This document shows, one piece after another, positions 3,340-3,690 of a DNA stretch of 41,110 nt. The stretch covers positions 1 to 41,110 of IMG/VR virus record IMGVR_UViG_3300032242_000232; one strand, given 5' to 3'. The position numbers and the translations under genes were made by a program. Source of the stretch: a virus. Each line of letters opens with the position of its first letter. Position 1 is the stretch's first letter. The notes under the pieces are model-generated. The model saw nothing but the letters and a program-made list of their open reading frames with translations. It had not been told where the DNA came from and ran no database searches.

Positions 3340-3690
3340 CCTTGGTGAACGAACGGACTCGGCTGGCAAAACTCTGCCTAGGGGAAAGGATCGCTTTCCA
3401 CCTAGGCGTAATTCCACTCCCCCGGAGCCACGCTGCAGCATTCCGTGTGGATCAGCGTCATACCAAGTGCGCTGACTATGTATGCTTTCCGTCGCTTGGC
3501 AACGTCTATCTCGGCCATACATCCTTATCCCCGCCCCGCAGGACTTGCACCCACGGTTAGAAATAAGTAACCCCCCGATTGCGCCACGATATCTTCTTTG
3601 CGCTCTCGTCCCAAGTCAGAACGTTGTAGGGTGGTGGACTGCGGACTTTCCTCTACGCTTCCCTCATGCCACCCAATAACCCGATAGATA
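3340..3690 (-). ncRNA. Candidate structured non-coding RNA block, about 350 nt
   Basis: There is no convincing coding frame here, but local hairpins are dense. On the minus strand they are: an 8-nt-loop stem at 3572-3555; a stem at 3555-3537 closing the 7-nt loop TGCAAGT, which fits the T-loop pattern U-N-N-R-A-N-N; 5 bp with loop CCAAG at 3504-3490; 7 bp at 3476-3451; CCAC/GTGG at 3450-3428; and a 13-bp hairpin with a single bulge at 3407-3376 (GCCTAGG arm). An 11-nt GAGGAAAGTCC at 3653-3643 matches the RNase P P4 motif but its partner is missing. The minus strand is inferred from adjacent tRNAs and genes. Exact ends are unknown. Confidence 0.55.

Follow-up and report, generated by a model that had tools for sequence, protein, structure and literature searches.

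ColE1 RNA II (overview in PMC5043065; see also PMC8683028) is a structured pre-primer with a G run in a loop and a further G run close to the origin, and the contact between the G stretch of the RNA and the C stretch of the template is essential for a stable R-loop (Masukata and Tomizawa 1990, as cited in the available part of PMC4412123). On the RNA II strand of ColE1 (NC_001371) there are exactly two GGGGGG runs, one at 928 in a hairpin loop and one at 1175, i.e. 247 nt apart. According to the available part of PMC4412123, phage T4 oriF and oriG also use R-loops, each origin consisting of a middle promoter and an unwinding element.

Here we describe a phage RNA of about 370 nt that, like ColE1 RNA II, is long and structured and has an internal loop segment repeated in the same sense near its 3' end. 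It differs from RNA II in that GGCTCC and CACC, which precede the two copies, lie only 68-82 nt apart and in that the repeat varies between phages. What we propose is a likeness in the way of working; no membership by sequence or fold is claimed. With T4 oriF and oriG the RNA would share phage replication that starts from a persistently hybridised transcript, whereas the available part of PMC4412123 mentions no ornate RNA with a repeat for these origins. GOLLD, ROOL and OLE are likewise large ornate orphan RNAs; the new RNA, about 370 nt long, differs from them and matches no Rfam family. GOLLD lies near tRNA genes, as does the new RNA in the contig analysed here, but we know of no covarying direct repeat in GOLLD, ROOL or OLE. 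The RNA adds a strongly covarying class for which no relative is known.

The stretch of DNA analysed, referred to as the window, is an IMG/VR virus contig of 41,110 bases. Its right end encodes a major head protein; genes for tail or ejection proteins lie on the minus strand, and those for a PD-(D/E)XK nuclease and an ERF protein on the plus strand. By sequence inspection, the structured block was located on the minus strand at about 3700-3335.

Members and covarying fold of the RNA

We found 58 relatives, all of them in virus sequences, giving 59 members including the window. The first two came from an IMG/VR match to a 16-base piece of the block and the third lies in a contig retrieved via the nuclease. 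A conserved 5' motif yielded 48 stretches, 39 of which contain the RNA (L083 and L086 among them), while eight were dropped as they gave no profile hit and L094 was dropped as a second copy of the L005 contig. A second motif contributed one more member (L137), the phage collection another (L140, MW202426.1), and a further motif 18 new stretches with 16 members, L166 and L173 being rejected as non-members.

MW202426.1, an uncultivated genome from Manatee Spring, is the single member in GenBank; there the RNA region (7705-8109) is annotated as hypothetical proteins, and these annotations look spurious. A BLAST search of the phage collection with the window block and its surroundings gave 319 matching records, and all of the 20 listed match the tRNA-Pro part only. 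With the RNA of six relatives and the leader as queries, the same collection returned only MW202426.1 and MT836018.1, the latter being rejected as a false match since it is G+C-rich and, judged by eye, a coding stretch. One query against plasmids found no member, and one exact-pattern scan of bacterial and archaeal genomes gave two matches, neither of which is a member. The RNA is known so far from uncultivated phages only.

The original prediction described a hairpin-dense block at 3340-3690 with at least six stems, among them a 13-bp bulged hairpin, and with no credible gene, but named no strand. More than six stems are present, all on the minus strand, and the bulged hairpin is one of them (P9):

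3335-3700, minus strand: structured RNA with its 5' side at 3700; 59 members, covariation, profile match 3705-3334
3698-3691/3615-3608, minus strand: P1, closing the 5' domain; double changes in eight of eight pairs
3674-3669/3634-3629, minus strand: P2, GGGTGG with CCACCC; double changes in five of seven pairs
3658-3656/3643-3641, minus strand: P3, inside P2; double changes in all three pairs
3653-3643, minus strand: P4-like sequence GAGGAAAGTCC, within P2
3581-3603, minus strand: P4 hairpin, GCGC with GCGC, its loop containing a conserved AGAAG; 100% of cells paired
3578-3575/3514-3511, minus strand: pseudoknot with P6, TCGG with CCGA (columns 141-144/208-211 of the structure alignment A2)
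3524-3567, minus strand: P5, CTTAT with ATAAG, enclosing the T-loop hairpin 3556-3536 with loop TGCAAGT 3549-3543
3478-3522, minus strand: P6, ATGTATG with CATACAT, and a conserved GGAAAG; double changes in seven of seven pairs
3504-3500/3494-3490, minus strand: inner stem of P6; double changes in five of five pairs
3452-3475, minus strand: P7, TCAGCG with CGCTGA; double changes in six of six pairs
3413-3451, minus strand: P8, TCCAC with GTGGA, together with P8a, CGGA with TCCG; GGCTCC at 3429-3424
3376-3407, minus strand: P9, the 13-bp bulged hairpin, 3407-3401/3382-3376 and 3399-3394/3388-3383

The structure alignment A2 was built from 32 members out of 59 and omits near-duplicates as well as divergent members (e.g. 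L104, L133, L140, L160, L165 and L172). The drawn structure has 81 pairs including one pseudoknot (77 without it), and standard pairs occupy 88.0% of the cells vs 37-43% if the partners are slid by one to three columns, a comparison that favours the drawn structure, as this was drawn in part with the help of the window row and of RNAalifold run on that alignment. Comparative folding, which had been proposed as a check, revealed compensatory changes: 54 of the 81 pairs show changes of both partners in one or more of the 32 rows, and there are 365 double-change cells as compared to 122.5 in shuffles, with none of 500 shuffles reaching 365. RNAalifold alone gave 52 pairs, 35 of them with compensatory change, and revealed the TCGG/CCGA pseudoknot, which is paired in 100% of the cells and shows double changes in three of its four pairs, in 8 to 17 rows.

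In 31 of the 32 aligned members none of the six frames is open throughout the RNA, one row having one such frame; the absence of a credible gene is thus borne out, and together with the covariation this indicates a folded RNA rather than a protein gene. The folding energy of the block sequence alone is no better than chance on the minus strand (z -0.14, 44 of 100 shuffles being equally stable; z -1.83 for the opposite strand), i.e. the block stands out beyond chance because of the covariation between relatives and not because of single-sequence folding energy. Taken together, these data strongly support a new family of structured phage RNA that has no matching Rfam family, in line with the functional and possibly new structured RNA that had been proposed.

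Comparison with known RNA classes

Two features of the window had pointed to known RNAs, namely GAGGAAAGTCC, which has the letters of the P4 sequence of bacterial RNase P RNA, and the 7-nt T-loop TGCAAGT next to another stem, reminiscent of the anticodon and T arms of a tRNA. Both are present in the window, but neither is conserved, and hence the family as a whole shows neither RNase P character nor tRNA mimicry. The segment with GAGGAAAGTCC has the form GTAGGAAGCCGCAAGGCGTAGTCC in most relatives, where it is accompanied by an extra small hairpin; likewise, the P4-like strand is GGAAGCCGCAAGGCGTAGTCC or similar in most rows. In contrast to RNase P RNA the segment pairs locally, being part of a covarying stem (A2 columns 43-45/71-73) with GCG/CGC in most rows and with changes on both strands in other rows. 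GAGGAAAGTCC is a remnant at the place where most relatives have the extra small hairpin. Similarly, the CCG/CGG stem of the T-loop hairpin is retained, whereas its loop sequence is substituted in several members, e.g. in L105, L111 and L126.

The comparison with Rfam covariance models, also proposed as a check, gave no family match. The RNase P models do not match either, and ARAGORN and Rfam detect no tRNA or tmRNA at the block, the only tRNAs nearby being tRNA-Pro and tRNA-His. Among the models for group I and group II introns there was one group II D1-D4 match at chance level (E 7, 12 bits vs a gathering score of 49), and GOLLD, ROOL, OLE and the other families of Rfam 15 gave no match at gathering score. 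A scan up to E 1 yielded tRNAs and one Trp_leader match below cut-off. Given these results, in which the covariance models refute RNase P and tmRNA, that the block is an RNase P RNA, a tmRNA or a tRNA mimic has a virtually negligible probability. Among the known families that turned up in a full-text search of openly available papers on ornate or novel structured phage RNAs, such as GOLLD, ROOL and OLE, we recognised none as this RNA.

R1 is kept identical to R2 while its letters change from phage to phage

The 3' part of the RNA contains a short direct repeat, followed in the window by a small gene:

3421-3416, minus strand: R1, the internal copy GGGAGT, with letters 1-4 lying in the 3' internal loop of P8
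3341-3336, minus strand: R2, the 3' copy GGGAGT, after CACCAA 3347-3342
3131-3331, minus strand: ORF of 66 aa starting just after R2, without a Pfam family

R1 comprises 4-10 nt after the invariant GGCTCC and recurs as R2 after the 3' CACCA. Its letters differ between phages, being GGGAGT in the window, GAATGT in L099, GGAAGT in L118, TCGGTGGA in L137, TCGTGGAAG in L102 and AAGGAAACA in L140. In a first set of 29 types the mean in-register run was 6.66 vs 3.05 upon permutation, none of 20,000 permutations being as good, with the 3' anchor selectable among several CACC. In the retest the anchor was set by distance only, ignoring R1, and 53 of the 58 anchored members were used; L104, L160, L162 and L175, which have no GGCTCC, and L172, which has CACCT, were excluded, and the 59th member, L163, is cut at its 5' end. 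The 37 distinct pairs gave a mean run of 6.78 vs 2.97 (0 of 20,000), and one type for each of the 20 R1 hexamers gave 7.1 vs 2.95 (0 of 20,000). A second set comprised 13 additional members (10 types), retrieved by a motif distant from both R1 and R2, and gave 7.0 vs 3.35, again with 0 of 20,000 permutations as good. The weakest repeats are those of L086 (4 nt) and L172 (5 nt), R1 varies little in the CTGAT class, and L104 has no R1 domain. By eye, L160, L162 and L175, which have neither GGCTCC nor CACCA, still carry a repeat of this kind, CGG-TTGGAAG / CAA-TTGGAAG, in the corresponding position ahead of P9.

The block had alternatively been proposed to be a 5' leader of the gene at 3131-3331. 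For the window this is tenable, as an ATG follows CACC by 12 nt, but it does not hold across members: the downstream gene differs among them, and in 9 of 43 no ORF of 40 aa or more starts within 45 nt. No relatives of the 66-aa ORF turned up in a search. If the RNA were an ordinary leader, R2 might be the ribosome-binding site of the next gene, for an ATG closely follows R2 in the window and in many members. However, the nine members without such a start largely refute this reading, as all of these except L104, which has no R1, keep the repeat, and R1 would be left unexplained; we thus consider it highly improbable.

If R1 acts by pairing, its partner may be sought within the RNA, nearby or elsewhere. 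The best column for a covarying complement inside the RNA has a z of 3.62 vs a 95% limit of 3.53 and pairs poorly (4.66 of 6), which leaves a weak cis partner of R1 inside the RNA a slight chance. There is no covarying complement of R1 within -600 to +900. Nor is there an extra copy or complement of R1 elsewhere in the contig stretches examined, which are parts of incomplete contigs (8.34 for own contigs vs 8.33 for others). A 12-nt match in the window at 7184, on the opposite strand within the ERF gene, was rejected as an additional genomic target of R1 and judged to be due to chance, own contigs being no better than others. Splicing-like readings were rejected as well, as no complementary internal guide was found. 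With no complement nearby and no extra match, the complementary DNA strand is left as the partner at hand.

The mismatches between R1 and R2 run almost entirely one way, with 62 G>A and 10 T>C as compared to 3 A>G and 0 C>T (R1 letter first); they are taken as supporting evidence only, since the bias is inflated by shared ancestry and the GG in R1 also serves P8. Wobble pairing would explain this direction, being tolerated if the R1 RNA pairs with the complement of R2.

R1 and R2 could instead both be binding sites for a single trans-acting factor, either a protein or a small RNA of that phage changing in step with them, which would account for their identity in the absence of a cis complement. 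Such a partner, however, would have to re-evolve for each of the 20 R1 hexamers, the contig stretches examined, though incomplete, contain no complement or extra copy, and a protein would give no reason for the G>A bias. We therefore regard a trans-acting partner as quite unlikely.

Based on our findings we suggest, tentatively and with somewhat less than even confidence, that R1 captures the template at R2 in cis and that the resulting hybrid primes replication, the RNA marking an origin. Transcription would start at a sigma70 promoter and run through a leader with intrinsic terminator to make the RNA, and once RNA polymerase has completed R2 the R1 loop, exposed on that very transcript, would pair with the template DNA at R2. 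This pairing might seed a lasting RNA:DNA hybrid, just as the G run does in ColE1 RNA II, and the hybrid would open the phage DNA and supply a primer. R1 would then have to equal R2 and yet be free to change because it pairs with the template strand at R2.

We infer that template capture in cis is the most likely mechanism and that replication priming is its most likely, though less certain, use. Template capture is consistent with the identity of R1 and R2 across 37 types, with the repeat rule of the first set holding in the second, with L095 and L110, which share the same downstream gene while both repeat copies have changed, and with the lack of a cis complement or extra match and the wobble-tolerated direction of the mismatches. 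Moreover, ColE1 shows the same layout, and R-loops are described for T4 oriF and oriG (available part of PMC4412123). On the other hand, R1 is short (4-10 nt, only 4 nt in L086), the CTGAT class varies little, L104 does without the R1 domain, and the complement column inside the RNA is borderline. Just upstream of its RNA, L140 encodes a helicase and a Toprim-like protein (below cut-off), as might be expected for a role in replication; GC skew, in contrast, tracks gene direction and singles out no origin, and the replication role draws on analogy and gene neighbours.

It is possible, if rather doubtful, that the RNA is an RNA-programmed replication origin in which nearly any sequence of 4-10 nt may act as R1 provided that R2 is the same, serving as a lineage-specific address on the phage's own template DNA. 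If the hybrid model is true, strand opening seeded by RNA would reach beyond one plasmid type to a large phage group, and its addresses would be variable rather than fixed; if it is false, the R1/R2 repeat still calls for another explanation. In either case the co-varying same-sense repeat provides a handle on the mechanism, i.e. two short sites, each of which can be replaced, with a definite prediction.

Promoter, leader and gene neighbourhood

Upstream of the RNA the window contains the following elements:

3981-4058 and 3889-3961, minus strand: tRNA-Pro and tRNA-His (ARAGORN and Rfam), directly upstream of the promoter
3848-3878, minus strand: sigma70-type promoter TTGACA-19-TATAAT, upstream of the leader
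3723-3841, minus strand: leader with intrinsic terminator, stem 3812-3803/3738-3729, T-run 3728-3723
3834-3828/3755-3749, minus strand: leader pseudoknot, GTAGGAA with TTCCTAC, in which the terminator loop pairs back with the leader

A promoter score of at least 9.5 is reached in 20 of 30 members as compared to 11 of 344 control windows; the spacer is often 18-19 nt, and a scan restricted to spacers of 16-18 misses the promoter of the window. The T-run of the leader terminator begins 30-40 nt ahead of the TCTATCGGG motif in most members. By eye, the leader pseudoknot shows complementary changes, e.g. GTCGTAC/GTACGAC in L099 and GTTGCAC/GTGCAAC in L101. At least three unlike leader types are found ahead of the same RNA, and in L099 three tRNA matches (2624-3042) precede the RNA.

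The RNA opens a gene block on its own strand, and nine contigs encode a TerL C-terminal domain about 12-18 kb downstream in the same orientation. This arrangement bears on the main rival to replication priming, i.e. that R1 pairs with the template at R2 in order to control transcription by termination, pausing or antitermination, a use that we consider unlikely. In this reading a hybrid swap would release RNA polymerase or hold it at the end of the RNA. Transcription control would suit an RNA that follows a promoter, a leader and a terminator and that opens a gene block with a TerL domain downstream, and most 3' flanks have no U-tract terminator. The L096 group, however, is followed by a promoter-like sequence (by eye) instead of a gene, and we know of no RNA that controls transcription by such template pairing.

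A role in packaging or as a cos site might be suggested by G012, where TerL is about 2.4 kb from the RNA, and by a TerS-like ORF (below cut-off) just after R2 in L134; it was rejected as the main reading, as the RNA is located mid-contig in most long contigs and the TerL domain is about 12-18 kb off in nine contigs. Other genes just after R2 encode HNH proteins (PF01844; L083, L097 and L099) and DUF5710 (L128). The HNH family was found in three of three full-length proteins tested, and downstream genes vary among members, as would be expected if the RNA was a mobile element whose guide R1 picks R2 as insertion site, aided by the adjoining HNH protein. Yet this scenario is very unlikely: no transposase, recombinase or reverse transcriptase is evident by eye in the 30 largest protein clusters near the RNA, most clusters being without annotation, and no empty site occurs among the 18 of 275 locus pairs in which both flanks match, the sole informative case, L004, having another large non-coding block. 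Furthermore, R1 and R2 have changed in L095 and L110 with the neighbour unchanged.

In L140 the helicase ORF (1-2187) contains a LAGLIDADG-like domain, possibly an intein. Other large non-coding blocks without an Rfam match occur on the minus strand in L004 (5380-4920), L002 (5810-5470) and L003 (510-220). They occupy the same place in these relatives of the window phage, following a promoter, leader and terminator of like kind, and the site may thus be a hot spot for ornate RNAs. The block of L004 starts with GTCTATCGGG and a P1-like pairing.
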